A stretch of 64,000 bases of DNA from Sipunculus nudus (lineage: Eukaryota > Annelida > Sipuncula > Golfingiida > Sipunculidae): contig CM049311.1 in NCBI GenBank assembly GCA_026874595.1, forward strand, positions 70,290,453 to 70,354,452, given 5' to 3'. The position numbers and the translations under genes are program-made. Of the stretch, positions 663-12,150 are shown one piece after another (the first letter of the stretch is position 1; each line of letters starts with the position of its first letter). Below the pieces are notes generated by a model. The model did no database searches. It was not told the origin of the DNA and was given only the letters and a program-made list of their open reading frames with translations.

Positions 663-3600
663 ATGAAGTGAGTGTCGAAATCATGTAACCCCTGTCGAAA
701 ATCCACATTAATCCTATCAGAAGATCACAAAATTACAAAGTTACATCGAAGATATGGAACTTAAAAATGTATTGAAAGTTGATAGTTATTCTTTTCTTTT
801 ATTCCAGGCTCGAGCTGTGCTCCTACAGCGGGATCAAAATCTATCCCGGCCATGGGAAACGAATGGTCAGAACCGATGGCAGGGTACGTCAATATTTGAT
901 TATATACAACACGTGGAAATCTCTGAAAAAAAATCAGTTGTGAATGAAATCAATTGAAATGCAGAAAATGCATTTCTTTTAGTGGTTAACACAGCAACCG
1001 TTTTGCCCATCCAACCGGTATATATATTATCGGAACTAGTGGCATGTTTTGGCAACTGACGGTATCAGTGCAATGCTGTTTAAAAGGGGTCCGCCTAGCT
1101 CGATTGAATCGGACTCAATATTATAAGGCCTGCCATATATTGAGTCCGATAGCCATACAATGAGAGTTTCTACAATATAAGCCACGGAAGATGCAACGGA
1201 TCCGTTGCATCTTCTTTGACTGCTTGTTTACTGCCAAACAACAGGACACAGGATTATACCATTTTAACACCAATAAGTATGTGTTTCATGGTTTCGATAG
1301 CAACTAAAATCAAACTTGGATCATCATTTTTAAACATTTACTAACCATTCAACCAGAGGCATGTCAGCGAGTTTAGTAGGGACAGAGAAGAACAGTCAAA
1401 CAGGTGCACTTGATGACCTCGCTGATAGCCTCGCTCACTCGAGTGATTGACAGCTAAAATGATGTTACATTTTGTTTCAACGGGCCCGGTGCTGAAGAAT
1501 GACTGCCGATCGGGGTAATAAACACCTGTTGATACTGGTTACAAGGGCATTGGGTGGCATGTAGTCTGAGGCTTATATTGTAGAAACTCACTGTATGGCT
1601 ATAGGACTCAATATATGGCAGTGCCTAATAATATTTACGCTCCCGAGGCAGCGGAAATCTTGCGCTTCTAAAGAAGCAACCGATTTTCACGGTGCCAGCT
1701 TTGACCTTTTATGATATATTTAGACACCAGATGGCGGTTCGTTTTCCACTGAAATAAACGTGCGTATGATGTGACAAGCAGCCAATCAGATGCCAATAAA
1801 CAAACACTCGATAGGCATCCTGGCTCCGCCCATAGCTGCGCTTCAAGCGCCTTTTGAAGACAGATAACGGTCGAATTTTAATTGCTCCCTCTGCATTCTC
1901 GCTTCATCGACCGATTCTGATGGTATGACTGTGTTAGTGTAGCCATGTATCTGTTGTCTGCAGAACTGAAACCAGCAAGCGAGGTGTGCACGCAGCCTTT
2001 GTTGTTACGTTTTGTTTGAATTACAGCTCACCGGCCGAGCATCATATGTGCCCAAGGCCCTAAGCAAACCACGTCAGGGGCAATTCTCTCTGAGCCTGTG
2101 GCCTGTTCAGACGGTTACGCTGGGGGATGAGCTGTCACTCAAAAAGAAATTAATATGATTGGCTCTGTGTATTCCTCGCTTGGCCGTGTCTTCCAGCACA
2201 AGGTCTCATCTGATTGGACAAAAATACAGTGCTCCTCTCTGGTGTTGCAATTCAGGATACGAGGTCATAACAAACAGCGCCTTACGATATAGGTAGTAGC
2301 CCTATAGGTAAAGCGCTGTGTAAAGAGCGTAAATAATATTGAGTCCGATTAAATTGGGCTAGGGTCCTCCTTAACACCCAAAACACCAGTGTTTTGGATA
2401 GTGTGACGAAACACCACGAAACGCCCTTTTAAATTCGAACTTGAAACAAAATACTGGAATCAGTTAATAAATTATCATCTGTTGCATATGTTAATGCGGA
2501 ATTGTGCCACTATTCTGTAAAAGAAAAGAAAGCAATGGTGTTTTGTACAACTGACAAGTGCGCTGCTTGATTGCGACTTGGCCACTAGGGAGCAGGGTCA
2601 TAGCTGGCATAAATGGCTGCAGTGGGCGCCGGTGAACCAACCACGGCCCGAAACACTCATTTTTGTCATTATGTCATAAATTTATGAAACAAAATTGCAG
2701 ATTTATATCCATATGATGATTATTTATCGATTGGTGTTACGTTTTGGGTTCAGGTTTGTAGTTAAGTGGGTTTTTCGTGGTGTTTCGTCACAGAAACCCA
2801 AAACACTGGTGTTTAGGGGGACCCGTTTAAAAGTGTTTTGCAGCTTGATGTGCTGTGCTTAGTAATAAAGTACATATTCTTTTTTTGTTTTCTGTCAAGG
2901 GGTGCCCATCCGTCTATGGAGCATTTTTTTTTAATTTGATGAAACGAAAATTGTTGGCTACTGACTCTACATGATTCTGGTTGGTTAATAAATGAAACCA
3001 GCACCACACGCCACTAACATGTTCCAATTTTTTAAAGTGATTTAACAAAACGTATCTTATGAAAATTTATTTAGCAGCATGCCAACTGAAGTGACTAGAA
3101 GACTAACTGTCATTATTTAAATAATCTTTGAATTAGGGGTCACTTACGATTCACCTGTGTAGGTGCGGTGTCACATTTATGAGGGTTTTATGTTTGCCAT
3201 AATAGTCCATTGCAATATTGAAAGAGAGACTCGGCAATTCGTTTTTCAGGAGATTAAATTCTTGACCCAACTGGTAGCAGCCAGATCCCATGATGAAAAT
3301 CTTGGAATTACCGTTTGATTTATATTATGAAACAACAATTGCGGCTTTCTTTTCTGAGGATCTAGCTGGGAATGCACTCCACATGACTTAAATCATGTGC
3401 CTCATTAGTGAATAGTGTTTAACACAGAATTCTCACCTTTTAAAGAAAAATGTCTTTGTTCAAGTCCATAGTATTTTACATTTGAATGACAGTTCTTGAA
3501 ACTTTTATTTCAGACATTCATATTTTTGAGTGCAAAATGTGAGGCGTCACACATGATGAAGCGCAACCCCCGTAAAATCAGCTGGACTGTGTTGTACAGA

Positions 3601-6600
3601 CGTAAACACAAAAAGGGGGTGCAAGAAGAGGCCGCCAAGAAAAGGACAAGACGTACACAAAAGTTCCAGCGTGCCATTACTGGTGCTTCTCTCAGTGACA
3701 TCATGGCCAAGCGTAACCAGAAACCTGAGGTCAGGAAGGCACAGCGTGAACAGGCCATCAGGTACAAATGTCCGCAAGACTGTGGCTAATCGCACAAACT
3801 GAAACAATGTGTACTTCTTTGCAAAGCACAGAAATAGTTTTCCACATTTTCACATATAAACAGCTTGATTTCAGTCAATTATTATGATTTGAATTTTGCA
3901 GCACAAAAAAATTGCATCCTTTTATTCAACCTTTAAGCATTTCCATTTGTAAATCTAAGTAACTTCACTCACAGTTGTGTAAACGCGAAAGACCAATGTT
4001 GTCAACAGATCTGTGATTGGACACATGAATCTTTAATTTGTCATCCAATGTTTGCAAGACCAGTGGTCAGCAGATCCGTGATGGGACACGTGAACCTTAA
4101 ATTGTCATCCAAGTTAATACTAAACAAGACTTCATATATTGTACAATACAAATTCATTAGACTAGGACCCCAAAGTTCAATCATCTTTTCAGTATTCTAG
4201 CATTACCATGCATTTGATATCTCAAGCTGCAAATTTATCTAGTTCTCTGGGCTAAATATTACCTCAGAAGCAATATACAAGTACTTATCAAAAGCCTTTG
4301 CCACCAGGCATCCACAAGAGTGAAATTATTAGCAAAAAATTTCAAAAGGAAAGATTCCTATCTTGAAATTATTTTGTTGAAGTATACAACTTGCTCTTAA
4401 ATCTTCTCAAACGGGGGTGTCCAGAATGATGTATACACTTCATGTGCATGATGTATGCTGATTGTACAAATCAAGCTCAACAGATCTGATTGGACACAAA
4501 TAAGTATGGCTTAATGTAAAATAATAAACTTCTAGAATTCCAAGAGCATCCTGGGATATATTGTACAGCATTGTGCTGATAAATACCCTTTGATCTGCCT
4601 AAATAGAATCTTTTCACTGTTCATCTGTATACCGTGGTTGGCTTCATATTCCCAAGTTTAAATAATTGTAATTTTCACTTCTTCATTATATCAAAAGGGT
4701 TTCATTTTCACGATTTATCATACAGTAACTTGCACAATGTACATAACAATTAATATAAGTTACCTGATATATTTGCAAAATTTTAACAATCTTACCATGG
4801 AATGGGGGGATATTCTTCATGCAATAGAGGCAGATAAACACTACATATTGCAATAATTTATATTATCAATCATTGAATTATCGGTAACATTAAATGTACG
4901 CTAATATTGATGCTACCGGCACAATATATGTGAGATGTCATTGAAGCTACAGATTAAAATACTTTTTACCTGTACAGATGTGGGGTCTTATTGACATAGG
5001 TTTTATTTTTGTGATAATTTCCCCTTTGTGAATAATGAAAATTTGAAACCCTCATGAACAAAAGGGAACCCACAGTTTTCCTTACACTGAAGATGTAGTT
5101 TAAATCGGAAAAATGTGTTGAAGATGTGAAACCCGTGCCATCTTTCCTACTAAGGAGAGGTACCTTGCCTATTGGAATAACATGTCTGTTGGGGGGGGGG
5201 GTCAACTTGTGTTGTACAAGGTTTCTGACACTCAAATCAAACCTTGACAGAGTTTTCTATGACAGTCATTGCAGCAATGAAATGCATTTCTGTAACCTGT
5301 ATGATCATATATTGATTGTTGTGTTAATGCTTCAATGTAACCTGTATGATCATATTTTGATTGTTGTTTTAATGCCTTTCTGTAACCTGTATGATCATAT
5401 ATTGATTGTTGTGTTAATGCCTCTATGTAACCTCTATGATCATATATTGATTGTTGTGTTAATGTTTTTGCAGGGCAGCCAAAGAGAAGCAGAAGGCTAA
5501 GAACGCTCTCAAAAAACAGGTGAGCATATTGGCTATCCCCATGTGTAGTCATCATCACACAGTGGTTTTGTTATATAAACAGTGTTGATTGGACTTAACG
5601 TCTTCCAGTTGGCTTATATAAGTTGCAACTGTTGGTCTTGTATAGCTTGACATCCAGACAGGTCTTGATAAAATCGCTGGGGGAAAAAACTGGGAATTGA
5701 GGCCACCTAAGTGACCTACGTTCTGCCTGACAGAATAAAAACACTGTTTTGTGTTCCTTTGATGTTCAGTTTGTTTGTTGCTGAATGCATGTGCATAGAA
5801 TCATAAGGTAAAAATGTTTCTCTTTGAGATTCAAATCAACCATCTCACAGGTTTGGTGGGAAATCTACCAAACCACTTCTGGGAAATAATTAACAGTTCT
5901 AAAAACAAATATCTTACAAAAGATCAAATTTCTCAGGAATGGCTCCACAGTTTTTCCTTTAATTAAGGTGCATTTAACATTCTTCAATTACTTTTATAGT
6001 GGTTTGGGGATATTTCGAATTTTCATTAGAAGTGAAATTTTCTAATTACAATTTGAAAGCATATGTCCAAGTTTTGGAAGACTATCAGATAAGAAAAGAT
6101 CCTGCAATTGGGAAAAGTTCTTAAATAATATTGAAGTAGTATTGCTCATATCTTTTTATTTCAAATTATTTATTTTTATTACTTTATTTATCTGATAGCA
6201 TCCTAAACATGCTTGCTTATTTGCTGATAAACAAAGCCCATAGCCTCTGAATGCATCAATCCATAACAGCCAGATCCCATGATGAAAATCTTGGAATTAC
6301 CGTTTGATAATTATGAAACAATCTTCTGCGGCTTTATTTTCTGAGGTTCTGGCTGTGCACAACATATGTTCTTAAACAAACTTCCTTTGATTCTTGGGAT
6401 CGTTACATTGGTTTGCTGAATTATCTTAGATAGTTTGAACTTTGCATAAATGGCAAGTTGGAGTGGAATGTGCTGAAATTTAGTTGACATTAACAGATAA
6501 TACAACCACTGATCAATGCATAATACATTTCAGACCTCTGGCAAACCTGCTCAGCCCAAGGTTAAGGCTACCAAGAAGGTCATTACTGCCAAACCCAGGG

Positions 6601-6617
6601 TCGGTGGAAAGCGATAA
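663..6617 (+). CDS. RPL24: 60S ribosomal protein L24 (eL24), six-exon gene
   Basis: Coding exons are 663-667, 808-883, 3514-3761, 5474-5519 and 6534-6617; all introns are GT-AG and the frame stays open. Exon 1 supplies only ATGAA and exon 2 completes the Lys codon. The product is 152 residues, close to the roughly 157 of vertebrate eL24. It starts [20 protein letters not shown], contains the family core [12 protein letters not shown] followed by [11 protein letters not shown] and [20 protein letters not shown], and ends PRVGGKR. The L24e domain is roughly residues 1-65, followed by a long basic helix. In known ribosomes eL24 sits on the 60S surface and its C-terminal part forms a bridge to the 40S subunit. 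Introns 2-5 each carry a C/D snoRNA gene. An in-frame ATG extends the ORF upstream of exon 2 (754), but this is intron; the splice-supported start at 663 follows the pyrimidine leader. Confidence 0.95.
1187..1214. repeat. Perfect 28-base palindrome
   Basis: The half-site GAAGATGCAACGGA is followed immediately by its exact reverse complement, with no loop. It sits just inside the left arm of the intron 2 transposon and could extrude as a cruciform or be a transposase or host protein site. Confidence 0.85.
1636..2331 (+). mobile_element. 0.7-kb MITE, copy 1 (nested)
   Basis: The ends TACGCTC and GAGCGTA are flanked by a perfect 9-base duplication AATAATATT (1627-1635 and 2332-2340). The terminal repeat continues imperfectly as a CAGCG block six bases in. 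The interior has no long ORF. The same sequence recurs inverted at 21508-22185 and, rearranged, at 40517-40815. Insertion is into the right arm of the larger intron 2 element, so it is younger than that element. The 9-base duplication points to a Mutator-like helper. Confidence 0.85.
2376..2823. repeat. Inverted-repeat segment with CACCAGTGTTTTGG arms
   Basis: Arms of about 47 bases (2376-2425 and 2768-2820) share the blocks AAACACCAGTGTTTTGG and GACGAAACACCACGAAA in opposite orientation. They form the right end of the composite element. This could be a separate MITE captured by the larger unit. The centre is AT-rich without coding signs. Confidence 0.6.
3282..3364 (+). ncRNA. C/D-box snoRNA type A, copy 1 (RPL24 intron 2)
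   Basis: C box ATGATGA at 3290-3296, D' box TTGA at 3315-3318 and D box CTGA at 3354-3357 are closed by a terminal stem AGATCC/GGATCT. The guide TGGAATTACCG before D' is an 11-base perfect match to the universally conserved 18S segment CGGUAAUUCCA. The fifth base upstream of D' pairs with the U of CGGU. By my memory of rRNA maps this is the site methylated as yeast Um578 (snR77) and human Um627 (SNORD65). It is intronic in a ribosomal protein gene, the usual animal snoRNA location. Confidence 0.85.
3985..4115 (+). pseudogene. Two degenerate type B snoRNA copies
   Basis: Two tandem blocks in RPL24 intron 3 contain CAACAGATCTGTGATTGGAC (near 4000) and CAGCAGATCCGTGATGGGAC (near 4070). These resemble the 3' half of the intact snoRNA at 4417-4497, but two extra bases split the CTGA D box. 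They also share a downstream block near TTGTCATCCAA. They lack a convincing C box, so they look like relics of local duplication. Confidence 0.5.
4417..4497 (+). ncRNA. C/D-box snoRNA type B, copy 1 (RPL24 intron 3)
   Basis: C box ATGATGT at 4426-4432, an internal CTGA at 4458-4461 (possible D') and D box CTGA at 4486-4489 are closed by a perfect 7-base stem GTGTCCA/TGGACAC. The guide TCAAGCTCAACAG two bases before the D box is complementary over 13 bases to the conserved 28S segment CUGUUGAGCUUGA near the peptidyl-transferase region. The fifth-base rule places the methyl group on the G of CUG. I do not recall a standard yeast or human guide for that base, so no name is given. Confidence 0.8.
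5289..5470 (+). repeat. 45-bp tandem repeat before RPL24 exon 4
   Basis: Four copies with a 45-base period (starting near 5291, 5336, 5381 and 5426) share TGTAACCTGTATGATCATAT and TTGATTGTTGTGTTAATG. The array ends at the acceptor of exon 4 (AG at 5472-5473), so the repeat unit itself provides the branch-point region and the T-rich stretch used for splicing. The open frame across it is a consequence of the period being a multiple of three. Confidence 0.85.
6270..6352 (+). ncRNA. C/D-box snoRNA type A, copy 2 (RPL24 intron 4)
   Basis: A diverged duplicate of the intron 2 snoRNA. C box ATGATGA at 6279-6285, guide TGGAATTACCG, D' TTGA at 6304-6307 and D box CTGA at 6341-6344. The terminal stem is CCAGATCC/GGTTCTGG with one mismatch. 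The guide and boxes are unchanged while the rest has drifted, which argues that both copies are functional. The predicted target is the same 18S uridine as copy 1. Confidence 0.85.
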
Positions 6618-7540
6618 TTCTTGGATGAAAGTGAGTACACAAGTTGACCTGTTTTTAAATATTTTCCTGTTTTGTGTTTTCCTTGCCATGTGAAGGGTCC
6701 AGGATGATGTATTCTTATCATATTCATGATAAACACTGATTGTACAAATCAAGCTCAACAGATCTGACTGGACTGACCCATGATCAGTAGTATTTAATAT
6801 AACATAATAGAACCCAAACATCTTGGATCTAAGCCTGTAATTTCATGTGTAGGTTATAATATCTTGAGTTATCACAGGGTTTGGAAGACCCCTTTAAACA
6901 GTGCTGCCTTTTCTGGTTCTCATCTAAGGCTAAAATTGTACCAGATGCTAACTTGTTAAGTTTACTACAAATTTGATTTACCTTAAGAAAATGCATGCGA
7001 TTGTCATGCAAAATTCTTTGAAAAAAATTATTTTGAGTTTGGGTTATCGATTAAACTGGTCTGTCAAACTATGGCAGAGGCAGCAATTGATTTGAGTTGT
7101 GAGTCACAAAGACCATTTCATTGAGAAAGTGGTTCAGTTTAAATAATAAGTAAAGTCTTTTTAAAGCACATTCGAAACAGTGCCGTTACTTAAAGAGCCC
7201 CCCATGAGTGCGTTACACTCGCGACAAGAATATAACCTAATGTTTTGCACTCACAACACGTGAAAGGTCCATGGGGACATATCTACCTGACCTTGTTGTA
7301 TGAAAGTTGTAAACCTTGCAGTACTAGATGAGTGAAACACAAGACCTTTGATTTTACAAGTAAAAAACTGATAAATGTATTTTTTTTTAAATTCCCCATG
7401 ACTTAAATGTTACTGATACATTTTGTTCTTTTCCAGATTGCCGGGTCCTGTCCATCGAGTTGTAACATCATCTCTTTTCCTGTACATAGACCAATAAATA
7501 TGGTCACGTGGGTCTGTGTTAGTGTTTTATTTGTCTTTAT
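6618..7540 (+). terminator. RPL24: RPL24 3' UTR with intron, and poly(A) signal
   Basis: After the stop codon, 13 bases of exon 5 are followed by a consensus donor (GTGAGT at 6631). The acceptor TTCCAG ends at 7436, so the last exon (from 7437) is entirely non-coding. AATAAA at 7493-7498 is followed by a GT-rich stretch (GGGTCTGTGTTAGTG), giving cleavage near 7515-7530. The intron in the 3' UTR lies only 13 bases after the stop, so nonsense-mediated decay should not be triggered. This intron hosts a type B snoRNA. Confidence 0.8.
6697..6773 (+). ncRNA. C/D-box snoRNA type B, copy 2 (RPL24 3'-UTR intron)
   Basis: C box ATGATGT at 6704-6710, an internal CTGA at 6736-6739 and D box CTGA at 6764-6767, with a perfect terminal stem GTCCAG/CTGGAC. 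The block from TGTACAAATCAAGCTCAAC to the D box is identical to the intron 3 copy, while the 5' half differs. Conservation is concentrated on the 28S-complementary guide, as expected for a working methylation guide. Confidence 0.8.
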
Positions 7541-7659: not shown

Positions 7660-8750
7660 TCGGGGTTGGCAGTTTTATCCGCTGCCGGTTTAATCCACTG
7701 GATTTATCCAGATTTATCCGGGGCTCAGATAAAACAGGTTTTATCAAGTTTTATCCGAAGTTAAGGTGTATACTGTCTGTGAAGTACAGACATTTCATAT
7801 TAAATTGACCTTTCCACTGTAAAATAATAAAGTTCTAATAAGAAACATTTTTCTAGTTGACTGAATGATTGTTACTATATAGTCAATTATTTATACATAA
7901 AACAAACATTTCTTGTCACAGATCTCTACTGAAAGTGATGCCATGATCATAATAATAAGTCTGAGACTTTAAATTATTTCTCTTCTTTAGAGTGACTTTT
8001 TTAAAACACATATTCTGTTCATTATACTATAAAAAAAGCTAAACAAATGCAGTTAATACATGTTTAACTCCACAATCTTTGGTACCAAATAATGTATGAC
8101 ATGTACTCACAGATAAACATGATCATCTTTCTTACATCTGAGAGAGATGTACATAATAAGGTCATCTATTACATAAATGACTTAAAAAAACAGTGAAATA
8201 ATAATTTTATGAGGGTTCCCCCTGACATGCCAACAATAAAATGCTTAATAAGTTATCTTGCTCCAGTTTGTTTCTCTGAATGTGGGCAAGTCGCAACAGT
8301 CTGGGAGAAGAAACCTCAAAAGGATCACACTCATTCAGGCATCCTTCTCCACTGGACTCTTTTTAAGTTTCCCCATAAGTTGTTGATGATGGGTTGAAAA
8401 TGTCACCCTGTTGCCTGCCCTTGACTATATGTAAATTTTGGTTCCTTAGGAAGATTCTATAAAGATGATACATCCTAATGAGAAACTGACATCCAGCCAG
8501 AAAAGTAGCATAGCATAAGCTACAGTGGCTGCTGCCAACAGTGAAACCTGAACCTTGAGAAACTTGCCAATTGGATATCACTCTTATATTGTTAATATAT
8601 TAATAAACATTCTGAACTTGATTATCCTGATTAATATAAATGTTAATTTAATTAAAGTATACATGATGATTTCCTGTATAATTGGATTAAAGCGGATAAA
8701 ACCCAGTTTTATCCATTGTCCTGGATTATCCGGATAAAACCCAACCCTGT
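7660..8750. mobile_element. 1.1-kb terminal-inverted-repeat element
   Basis: The left end GGGGTTGGCAGTTTTATCCG and the right end CGGATAAAACCCAACCC are inverted relatives, followed inward by several TTTATCC/GGATAAA motifs. TAATAC occurs directly outside both ends (7654-7659 and 8751-8756), a plausible 6-base target duplication. The interior is AT-rich with no transposase. It lies directly downstream of RPL24. Confidence 0.55.
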
Positions 8751-8886: not shown

Positions 8887-9297
8887 GTGTGTGTATCCAG
8901 CCGGAAGCTCTGTGTATCCAGCCGAAAGGGCCGTGTATAAGAAGTGTGTGTATCCAGCCGAAAGGGCTGTGTATAAGAAGTGTGTGTATCCAGCCGAAAG
9001 GGCTGTGTATAAGAAGTCTGTGTATCCAGCCAAAAGGGCCGTGTATAAGAAGTCTGTGTATCCAGCCGAAAGGGCTGTGTATAAGAAGTCTCTGTATCCA
9101 GCCAAAAGGGCTGTGTATAAGAAGTCTCTGTATCCAGCCAAAAGGGCTGTGTATAAGAAGTCTGTGTACCCAGCCGAAAGGGCTGTGTATAAGAAGTCTG
9201 TGTATCCAGCCGAAAGGGCTGTGTATAAGAAGTGTATGTATCCAGCCAATAGCTCTGTATTAGTATTGTGTATCCAGCCAAAAGCTCTGTATTTGAA
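8887..9297. repeat. 36-bp minisatellite
   Basis: About nine to ten copies with an exact 36-base period (starts at 8911, 8947, 8983 ... 9235) of a unit built on TGTGTATCCAGCCGAAAGGG followed by CTGTGTATAAGAAG. Edge copies are degenerate. Because 36 is divisible by three, several frames on both strands stay open. I see no start context, signal peptide or splice signals, so coding is unlikely. Confidence 0.85.
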
Positions 9298-11339
9298 AGT
9301 TTGATTGTGATTCTAAGGCTGTTGTCGACGAAATTGACCAAAGAATATATAAAAAATTGTTTAGTACACTATTTCCCAACTTTTTTAATCAGATTATTAG
9401 TATTGTGTACTCGAGTGCATCCAAAATGATGGGGAATAAAAACAAGTGACCCATGGGTCATGACGCTCAGCTGACTGGGAAGAGATTCACAAAAGGAAAT
9501 TTTATCATCAGAATGGTAGATACTCATTCAACTGAAGCATCAAACAGAGTAACCAACAGGCCAAGATTTAGTCTGTATTTATATATCTGAAAAATAGAGA
9601 AAAAATGTGTAAACTTTAAAAACTAGAATACGGGTAGCCGACAAGTGACTACGTGTATCTGCCAAAATCAGGAGTGGAACGGGTGAAGTGAGGCATGGAT
9701 TGAGTGGCAAGGGGAAACAGAGTGAGGTATGTTGCATATTAGCATGGATGTCTGCAGCCTAAATGTGTATGTAGGTTGTGCAACCTACCACAAATCCAGA
9801 AAGCTGTCCAAGTTGAATACATATGCAAAATTTTAGGCAGAAAAGTCAAACCACTACATGAATATGAGTGATTTTAGCCCACGGCAGACAAACAGACAGA
9901 CGCTGTGGAAAAATGGTTGCAGTTTTGTGTATGATAAAGACCTATGTGAGATCTAAACACAAGCACAATTTTGGCCCAATCGGTCAAATGGTTCCTGAGA
10001 TATTAGCTTGGAAGTGTGCATCGTTAACTAGAATGTAGGTGGCGCCACCTGTCATAAAATCAAGAAAGCTATCCAGGATGTATAAACCTGCAAAATTTTA
10101 GGCAGTTATGTCAAACCACTACAGAGAAATGAGTGATTTTAGGCCACGGCAGACAAACAGACAGACGCTGTGCAAAATGTGCAAAAATGGTTGCAGGTGG
10201 CCCCTCCAGTTTTGTGTATGATAAAGACCTATGTGAGATCTATACACATGCAAAATTTTGGCCCAAGCGTTCAAAAGGTTCCCGAGATATGAGCTTGGAT
10301 GTCTGCAGCATAAACTAGAATAAAGGTGGCGCCACCTGTCATAAAATCAAGAAAGCTATCCAGGATGTATAAAACTGCAAAATTTTAGGCAGATATGTCA
10401 AACCTCTGCCAAGATGTGACTTTATTGCACGGCAGACAAACAGACAGACGCTGTGCAAAAATGGTTGCAGGTGGTGCCACCAGTTTTGCGTATGATAAAG
10501 AGCTATGTTAGATCTATACACGTGCAAAATTTTGGCCCGATCGGTCAAACGGTTCCCGAGATATGAGCTTGGATGTCATCAGCGTGAACGTGAATGTAGG
10601 TGGTGCCACCTGTCATAAAATCAAGAAAGCTATCCAGGATGTATAAAACTGCAAAATTTTAGGCAGATATGTCAAACCACTGCCGAGATATGAGTGACAT
10701 TATCGCACGGCAGACAAACAGACAGACGCTGTGCAAAAATGGTTGCAGGTGGCGCCACCAGTTTAGCGTATGATAAAGAGCTATGTTAGATCTATACACA
10801 TGCAAAATTTTGGTCCGATCGGTCAAACGGTTCCCGAAATATGAGCTTGGATGTCATCAGCGTGAATGAGAATGTAGGTGGCGCCACCTGTCATAAAATG
10901 AAGAAAGCTATCAAGAATGTATACGCATGCCGAATTTCAGGTGAATTAGTCAATTCACTGCAGAGATATGAGTGATTTTAACCAAAGCCAGATGAACAGA
11001 TGGACACTGTGCAAACATGGTTACAGGTGGCGCCACCATTTTTAGCTCACCTGACTTTCAGTCATGCTGGGCTATAGCGATGGGTCTTTGTCCGCCGTCC
11101 TTCCGTCTGTCTGTCCGGCCATCCGGTCGGCCGTCCGGCCGTTAGCAGGGCACAAATCATAACTGTAGGGGCTAGGACCATGAACCCTATGCAGTCTTAG
11201 AGGTTATAAAAAGATCTCCTTGCAAACCTGAAATTAGGTCACTGCGACCTATATTCTCGAAGTTATGGGGTGTGTTTGCACCCCCCAGAAATAACTCTTT
11301 GAGACAAAATTTTCACCCCAAACCTTCCATCTTTCACAT

Positions 11340-12150
11340 ACAGCTCACCTACCAACAGGGGAAGAACCGTAATTTTTTTAGGTCAAAAGGTCAAAGGTCA
11401 AGGTCACAGGAGCCTCTTCTTTGAAAAGCCTGTGGATGCATTCTAAGCCGAGCCTTTCATCCCAATTCTTTGATATTTCACATATAGCTCACCCACTAAG
11501 TTGGAGAAGAATCCTATAGATTTTGAGGTCACAAGGTCGAAGGTCAGGGTCACAGGATCCACTTCTTTGAAAAGGTTGTGGACACATTTCAAGCTAGACT
11601 TTTCATTCCAAACCTTCCAGTGCTGATATCGCTTCTCTGCAAACAGGGGAAAAGACCTGTTGATTTTGAGGTCAAAGGTCAAGTTCACAGCACCCACTTC
11701 CTGTGTGGAGTCATTTTCAGGCAAACTTTTCAATCTGTACCTTCCATCTGTCATATATGGCTAACCTACTAATAAGGGAAGAAACCTATTGATGTTGAGG
11801 TCAAAAAGTCAAAGGTCAAGGTCACAATATTTAATTGTTCTAAATGCTTGTGAGCATATTTCAAGTGTAACTGTTCAACCCAAACCTTCAGTCATTCACA
11901 TATGCCACATCTATGCATCACTCAGTTTGACTCAAACTTCATATTTATGGGTCTTTTTGCTTGAATAAATAACTTATTGATTTTGGGGTCAGCAGGTTAA
12001 AGGTTGCAGGTCAAAGTTATTCACCCATTGGTTGCCAAGTAATTACACCAGATTTAAGTGGTTAGTAGTTACCCATCATTTAGAAAGAATCCAGTTGATA
12101 TATGGGCAAAAGGCCAAGGTCATAGGTCAGGGATGTTCACAATTACTTAT
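11340..12150 (+). repeat. AGGTCA-rich repeat block
   Basis: Blocks near 11388, 11527, 11670 and 11798 each contain two to four AGGTCA-like hexamers in direct orientation with spacings of 0-2 bases, for example AAAGGTCAAGGTCACAGG. They recur at roughly 130-140 base intervals. AGGTCA is the half-site of nuclear receptors; whether these are bound is unknown. Confidence 0.6.

Follow-up and report, generated by a model that had tools for sequence, protein, structure and literature searches.

Why should one ribosomal protein gene carry two kinds of small nucleolar RNA (snoRNA) twice over and in strict alternation, what would these RNAs do, and how could such an order have arisen? The question is posed by the RPL24 (eL24) gene of the annelid Sipunculus nudus, which lies in a stretch of 64,000 nucleotides on contig CM049311.1 (assembly GCA_026874595.1, positions 70,290,453 to 70,354,452 of the forward strand; this whole stretch is called the window, and coordinates given without a contig name count from its first letter). 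An earlier note on this DNA had described four elements of the C/D type, belonging to two types (A and B) and arranged A-B-A-B in introns 2 to 5 of the gene, and the evidence from boxes, guides and terminal stems bears out that description. The explanation in which we place high confidence is one of intronic box C/D guides, with a predicted methylation site on ribosomal RNA (rRNA) for each type and a candidate accessory element, TGCGGCTT, in type A, multiplied by the copying of single snoRNAs and subsequent drift. The arrangement clearly exemplifies a kind already known, and no novel class of system; the additions made here are the set of copies in three host genes, the plant-type target predicted for type B in the large-subunit (LSU) rRNA, and the candidate accessory guide of type A. 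Among the papers listed on duplication of RPL24 snoRNAs or introns and on snoRNAs in molluscs, judged by titles and the beginnings of abstracts, none deals with this arrangement.

Following established snoRNA biology, the four RPL24 snoRNAs would be freed once the introns are spliced out, and would then join the core C/D proteins in a particle. The D' guide of type A would then pair with CGGUAAUUCCAG in the 18S rRNA, directing 2'-O-methylation of the U in CGGU, with TGCGGCTT serving as an accessory guide by pairing to AGCCGC just 5' of the guide duplex, while the D guide of type B would pair with CUGUUGAGCUUGA in the LSU rRNA and direct methylation of the G in CUG. Most likely, the snoRNAs alone were copied within and between genes, after which everything drifted except the boxes, the guides and the complementarity of the stems. 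The DNA itself shows the anatomy, the copies in the genome, their conservation and the complementarity to rRNA; expression, assembly into ribonucleoproteins, methylation, the accessory role and the route of duplication we infer.

Anatomy of the four intronic elements

The four RPL24 elements, all on the plus strand, are very likely box C/D snoRNAs. A1 (3275..3369, intron 2) contains box C (ATGATGA, 3290-3296), the D' guide TTGGAATTACCG (3302-3313) followed by the D' box TTGA, a degenerate C' box (TGAAA), the candidate accessory guide TGCGGCTT (3340..3347) and box D (CTGA, 3354-3357), enclosed by a terminal stem, CAGCCAGATCC/GGATCTAGCTG, that contains one mismatch. A2 (6264..6356, intron 4) has the same layout, with TGCGGCTT at 6327..6334 and the stem CAGCCAGATCC/GGTTCTGGCTG, again with one mismatch. 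B1 (4417..4497, intron 3) carries box C (ATGATG), the guide TCAAGCTCAACAG, box D (CTGA, 4486-4489) and the terminal stem GTGTCCA/TGGACAC; B2 (6695..6774, intron 5, in the 3' untranslated region, UTR) has the guide of B1 and the stem GTCCAG/CTGGAC. Conservation within each pair is concentrated rather than spread evenly: A1 and A2 differ in 13 of 96 columns with a longest clean run of 42 columns (permutation p 0.003), and B1 and B2 are 84% identical, with 12 differences over 77 ungapped positions and a longest clean run of 32 nt (p 0.009).

The same anatomy recurs in the ten copies found in the genome, six of which lie outside RPL24 and are described below. Box C (RTGATG) and box D (CTGA) are present in all ten, the full RTGATGA in all six A copies and ATGATGT or ATGATGC in the four B copies; the distance spanned from box C to box D is 63-73 nt throughout, with complementary arms on either side. 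When the terminal stems are scored with G-U pairs, one mismatch and an arm offset of up to 3 allowed, every copy forms 7-10 pairs (mean 8.5), whereas 82 combinations of arms taken from different lineages average 4.2, with a 95th percentile of 7 and a maximum of 9; none of 2000 shuffles reached the observed mean, the best having a mean of 5.7. Since the arm sequences differ between lineages and still pair, it is the complementarity that has been kept, and not the sequence. The earlier claims that each element has a C box, a D box and a terminal stem, and that the guides are kept while the rest has drifted, thus extend to the whole genome set for the former and, for the latter, agree with invariant guides and with outer flanks of the RPL24 pairs that retain no similarity.

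Two features sit less easily with four working snoRNAs, namely the stem mismatch in each RPL24 A copy and the distances of 978 and 663 nt that separate B1 and B2 from the next exon; the snoRNA-to-exon distances favoured in mammals are shorter.

Predicted targets in the two ribosomal subunits

Very probably, to judge by their guides, types A and B direct the chemical marking of rRNA. The earlier note had spoken of guides for two rRNA modifications, and complementarity does yield two predicted targets, one in the small subunit (SSU) and one in the LSU. The type A guide TTGGAATTACCG pairs with SSU CGGTAATTCCAG through 11 Watson-Crick pairs and one G-U pair, counted by hand, and the guide nucleotide five positions upstream of the D' box TTGA falls opposite the U of CGGU in 18S; the predicted target is therefore the U within CGGUAAUUCC, equivalent to Um578. 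On its guide and this predicted site, type A is a functional counterpart of snR77, SNORD65 (HBII-135, a name we take to be its synonym) and snoR77Y, with which it has in common the D' guide core GGAAUUACCG and the identical target nucleotide. The site appears in Table 1 of PMC8817022 as Um578 in yeast (snR77), Um627 in human (HBII-135), Um580 in Arabidopsis and Um571 in Dictyostelium, and it is also assigned in Neurospora (PMC2780460); the family RF00571 appears in PMC3511168. Type A differs from these relatives in having six copies in two hosts, the chicken GGgCD16 being entered with one copy in Table 1 of PMC2653536.

The Rfam check proposed in the earlier note gave matches below the gathering score for A and no significant match for B. 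Both A1 (45.0 bits, E 3.9e-6) and A2 (34.1 bits, E 0.0024) align over the full length of the snoR77Y model and stay below its gathering score. Two of the Rfam results weigh against the snoRNA reading: all six A copies, at 45.0, 38.8, 35.1, 34.1, 29.3 and 28.5 bits, fall short of the 52 bits required for snoR77Y, and type B has no significant Rfam match, the best for B1 and B2 being snoZ196 at E 7.1 and 3.6. The 36 matches listed for the SNORD65 model, for which only 60 of 335,945 candidates were scored, include no A copy. The whole 64-kb window gave nothing at gathering level. As the A scores lie below gathering, A is named a functional counterpart and is not filed as a member of clan CL00057. 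A further caution concerns the 18S context itself, whose source is the sole 18S match, on a small contig of uncertain origin. This SSU-model match (L006, G000:C18:43500-52500, at 7670-8717 on the minus strand) is 1048 nt long on a contig of 52.5 kb and may not be the host's own 18S; spanning the whole 1831-position model in 1048 nt, it must be much shortened.

Shortly before box D, all six A copies have TGCGGCTT, the only invariant 8-mer outside the boxes and the guide in the six-copy alignment. Its GCGGCT is complementary to AGCCGC of 18S, directly 5' of the guide duplex with one base shared, which makes it a candidate accessory guide for the 18S site of type A. The gap between GCGGCTT and CTGA varies from 4 to 6 nt, so that TGCGGCTT would not itself be a methylation guide. 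Shuffles of the D'-D interval give P values of 0.0045-0.025 per copy, which are not independent because the copies are related; of 8434 rRNA windows, 0.5% reach the same score or a higher one. The snoR77Y consensus has CUGGCU before its box D, which could pair similarly with one G-U. Accessory guides are established among C/D snoRNAs (PMC5389607). TGCGGCTT resembles the accessory elements of yeast snR13, U18 and others, which pair beside the guide duplex and sometimes overlap it (same source), but its role, unlike theirs, is read from sequence alone; the U18 element was without effect in an artificial construct, according to the same paper. That TGCGGCTT is no accessory guide, having been kept for contact with a protein, for internal folding or simply by shared ancestry, is a possibility to be taken seriously, though not one that we would favour: the 8-mer has no fixed distance from box D, it pairs equally with another SSU stretch and with an LSU contig (L055), and an LSU contig of another organism (L054) pairs with it better (scores of 18-20 against 17), all of which counts against the accessory role. 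On the other side stand its being the one invariant 8-mer of its kind and a pairing that falls exactly beside the guide duplex.

The guide of type B, starting 2 nt before box D, forms 13 Watson-Crick pairs (counted by hand) with the eukaryotic LSU stretch CTGTTGAGCTTGA, and the guide nucleotide five positions upstream of box D pairs, again by hand, with the G in CCCUG*UUGAGCUUGA, the asterisk following that G. The predicted target is the G within CUGUUGAGC, equivalent to yeast G2409, since yeast Um2417 and Um2421, aligned by hand, fit the stretch in one register only, which places the predicted Gm at the equivalent of G2409, 12 nt before Um2421. Spacing to these two sites also ruled out the sites of SNORD102 (Gm4020/4042) and of snR190/HBII-99 (yeast Gm2395) as the target of type B. 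The position presumably lies near the peptidyl-transferase region. The stretch CTGTTGAGCTTGA was found in three eukaryotic LSU sequences inside records of bacterial metagenome-assembled genomes (MAGs); these were fetched by a pattern that contains CTGTTGAGCTTGA, so they identify the molecule and not how common the stretch is. The three MAG contigs (L054, L055 and L056) are filed as Tissierellia, Gammaproteobacteria and Thermodesulfobacteriota, an apparent case of contamination during binning. Two exact rRNA patterns had no match in viral contigs.

The nearest known counterpart of the type B site is found in plants. Arabidopsis Gm2410, 12 nt before Um2422, is assigned to SnoR29 in PMC8053127, and Table 2 of PMC11542601 enters the Gm2410 site for three plants (Arabidopsis, tomato and tobacco) and also for the alga O. 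tauri, where it is predicted from snoRNAs. Type B thus shares its rRNA stretch with SnoR29 (25S Gm2410/Um2411), Gm2410 being the nucleotide predicted for B, but B uses its D guide whereas SnoR29 reaches Gm2410 with its D' guide and has other targets, among them the G2392 site, served by a second guide (PMC8053127). The stretch is also shared by Neurospora Nc CD20 (26S Um2372, listed with snR88 and snoR58 in PMC2780460), which differs from B in targeting the adjacent U, the next nucleotide in our numbering. Several points pull the other way. The site is left blank for human and yeast in PMC11542601, which also stars the Arabidopsis site as without a known guide, contradicting PMC8053127; in PMC8817022 it is missing from the Dictyostelium, yeast, human and older Arabidopsis columns; and the organism's own LSU was not found in the assembly at 0 or up to 3 mismatches. 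It is possible, if rather doubtful, that this animal retains a plant-type LSU methylation at the G2409 equivalent, backed by four guide copies in two host genes, that RPL24 co-doses one SSU and one LSU mark, and that the same marks are guided from a NONO/SFPQ-like gene and an SR-protein gene. If this were true, rRNA methylation would be tied to the expression of both ribosomal proteins and splicing factors. The preferred explanation itself predicts an LSU methylation that the tables cited leave blank for human and yeast, as well as an accessory guide for the old Um578/Um627 site.

Further copies and the origin of the alternating order

Whole-element DNA searches of the genome returned solely the two RPL24 copies of each type, and two had been taken as the full number per type; searches with core and guide patterns, in exact form or with mismatches, over the 1.43-Gb assembly overturned this count. 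The numbers that follow are lower bounds, as some stretches of the assembly read N. With up to one mismatch, the 17-nt A core gave 9 matches, 6 of them exact (12 for the reversed control at the same tolerance): A1, A2 and four on contig C6 (67520213-67525495, minus strand). For the 22-nt B core, searched with a tolerance of three mismatches, there were 16 matches, of which 4 were exact, none had one or two mismatches and 12 had three (reversed control 6), the exact ones being B1, B2 and two on contig C1 near 29.98 Mb. The remaining A-core matches were discarded: those at C1:98810594 and C1:98812490 belong to a single repeat present there twice (L050 and L051, 1.9 kb apart at 98.81 Mb, each holding the core with one mismatch), and that at C9:5806127 is unrelated, with no CTGA in the stretch read in any of the three. 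The guide-A pattern matched in 43 rows at 40 places, three of them doubled (reversed control 64); the other 34 places, read in context and by script, all lack both TTTGA behind the guide and GCGGCTT further 3', the script having taken in 39 places with one NONO/SFPQ-like copy counted twice, in two loci. Among six matches of the guide-B pattern, two, on C8 and C10, were dropped for lack of a box D behind the guide.

By exon positions, all ten copies are intronic and in the sense of their host, four in RPL24 and six in two other genes. The four C6 copies of type A occupy separate introns of a DBHS (NONO/SFPQ-like) gene, with an exon between each neighbouring pair; matches to NONO (E 2.5e-16) and SFPQ (8.6e-15) in PDB come from its coiled-coil exons, and matches to Pfam RRM_1 from its two RRM pieces. 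The two C1 copies of type B lie in two introns of an SR-protein gene with RRM and RS-rich exons, the best PDB match of its RRM being SRSF2 (8e-17). The protein queries for these hosts were assembled from translated exons whose junctions were guessed; the coiled-coil piece and a 22-aa N-terminal piece of the SR protein had no Pfam match, and the N-terminal motif of the latter is, as we take it, reminiscent of SRSF10. The proposal of dosage redundancy within one host gene is incomplete: RPL24 does hold two copies per type, but a further four of type A and two of type B reside in two other genes. With six copies of the SSU guide and four of the LSU guide, identical in their guides and drifted in their bodies, the set lends itself well to the question of why certain rRNA marks have so many guide copies behind them.

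How did the order arise? The earlier note offered two routes, duplication of an intron-pair block or two parallel duplications. For the former, with a block composed of intron A, an exon and intron B inside RPL24, the order and the pairing of the two types would speak. This block origin has become highly improbable. Exons 3 and 5 show no similarity (44 of 100 shuffles as good) and each encodes a normal part of eL24, and the introns, once the snoRNAs are masked, are no more alike than shuffles (23 of 60 as good for introns 2 and 4, 41 of 60 for 3 and 5). The same is true of the 250-nt outer flanks of the A pair (29/200 shuffles as good on the 5' side, 122/200 on the 3' side) and of the B pair (81/200 and 21/200). 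A very old duplication with fully decayed introns would in addition require replacement of the enclosed exon. Furthermore, two A and two B elements alternate in 2 of their 6 possible orders, a one-in-three chance, so that A-B-A-B calls for no particular explanation. The route that we prefer, in which single snoRNAs are copied, is described within and between genes in chicken (PMC2653536), and snoRNA mobility across eukaryotes is treated in PMC3511168. A direct precedent for interleaved C/D types is the chicken RPL4 gene, where U16 occupies introns 1 and 3, and U18 introns 2, 5 and 6 (PMC2653536, Table 1), but with other snoRNAs, in another host gene and without strict one-to-one alternation. 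In the SR-protein gene (L015), short exons at reverse-strand offsets 4245 and 6228 both encode YRSRSRSPR; one B copy stands before the first of them and the other after the second, an order that a simple block duplication does not fit. This B pair is 82% alike over 104 nt, slightly past the snoRNA ends, and its 250-nt outer flanks are without similarity (63/200 and 45/200 shuffles as good). The first and fourth NONO/SFPQ-like A copies are 91% identical and have similar flanks (0/200 shuffles as good on each side), which suggests recent separation or conversion.

Two other readings bear on whether all of these copies are functional snoRNAs. One copy of each RPL24 pair might be a decaying, non-expressed relic, with one A and one B at work; the stem mismatch in each of A1 and A2 would agree with this, and relics may indeed occur, given a partial B-like fragment in intron 3 (4002..4025, plus strand), which has 22 matches and a 2-nt insertion relative to the B1 end that holds box D and its stem arm, and a local score of 37 against a shuffle maximum of 29 (0/500). 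We nevertheless consider such decay unlikely in the four elements, as guides, boxes and stem pairing are kept in 10 of 10 copies while the outer flanks in RPL24 have lost detectable similarity. Hardly any credence can be given to the repeats being parts of a transposable or repetitive element that resembles snoRNAs by chance: other repeated sequences are present in the RPL24 introns, but merely 6 and 4 exact cores were counted in 1.43 Gb, all in introns of three genes, whole-element searches returned the RPL24 copies alone, and conservation coincides with the C/D boxes and the rRNA guides. Functional snoRNAs copied one at a time remain the preferred reading for the set. With regard to the fragment at 4002-4025, a weaker, degenerate second unit follows it near 4067-4091, as seen by eye, and the two are possibly relics or a decayed copy of B, or else a small palindromic repeat.

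The RPL24 host gene and its surroundings

The host gene occupies 663..7498 on the plus strand, from the ATG to an AATAAA signal. Its coding exons (663-667, 808-883, 3514-3761, 5474-5519 and 6534-6617) join into an open translation of 152 aa, the reading frame is intact and all five introns have GT..AG borders; the protein pieces match Pfam PF01246 (Ribosomal_L24e), and eL24 in PDB at E 1.7e-47. Exon 5 ends at 6630 and the 3'UTR exon 6 begins at 7437; with the stop codon at 6615-6617, intron 5 (6631-7436), the host of B2, falls in the 3'UTR. Immediately 5' of the start codon, at 643-656, a pyrimidine-rich tract, CCTCTTCTACTTCC, resembles a 5' terminal oligopyrimidine (5'TOP) sequence, a feature that one would expect where a ribosomal protein is encoded.

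Further upstream, positions 131-199 weakly resemble plant snoR25 (25.7 bits against a gathering score of 50, E 2.3), probably by chance. Within intron 3, a 45-bp tandem repeat at 5291-5464 (3.9 copies, 91% matches) stops 9 nt before the intron end, and 3' of the gene the window continues with tandem arrays of 36, 278 and 146 bp at 8904-9284, 9920-11043 and 11311-11619, respectively.

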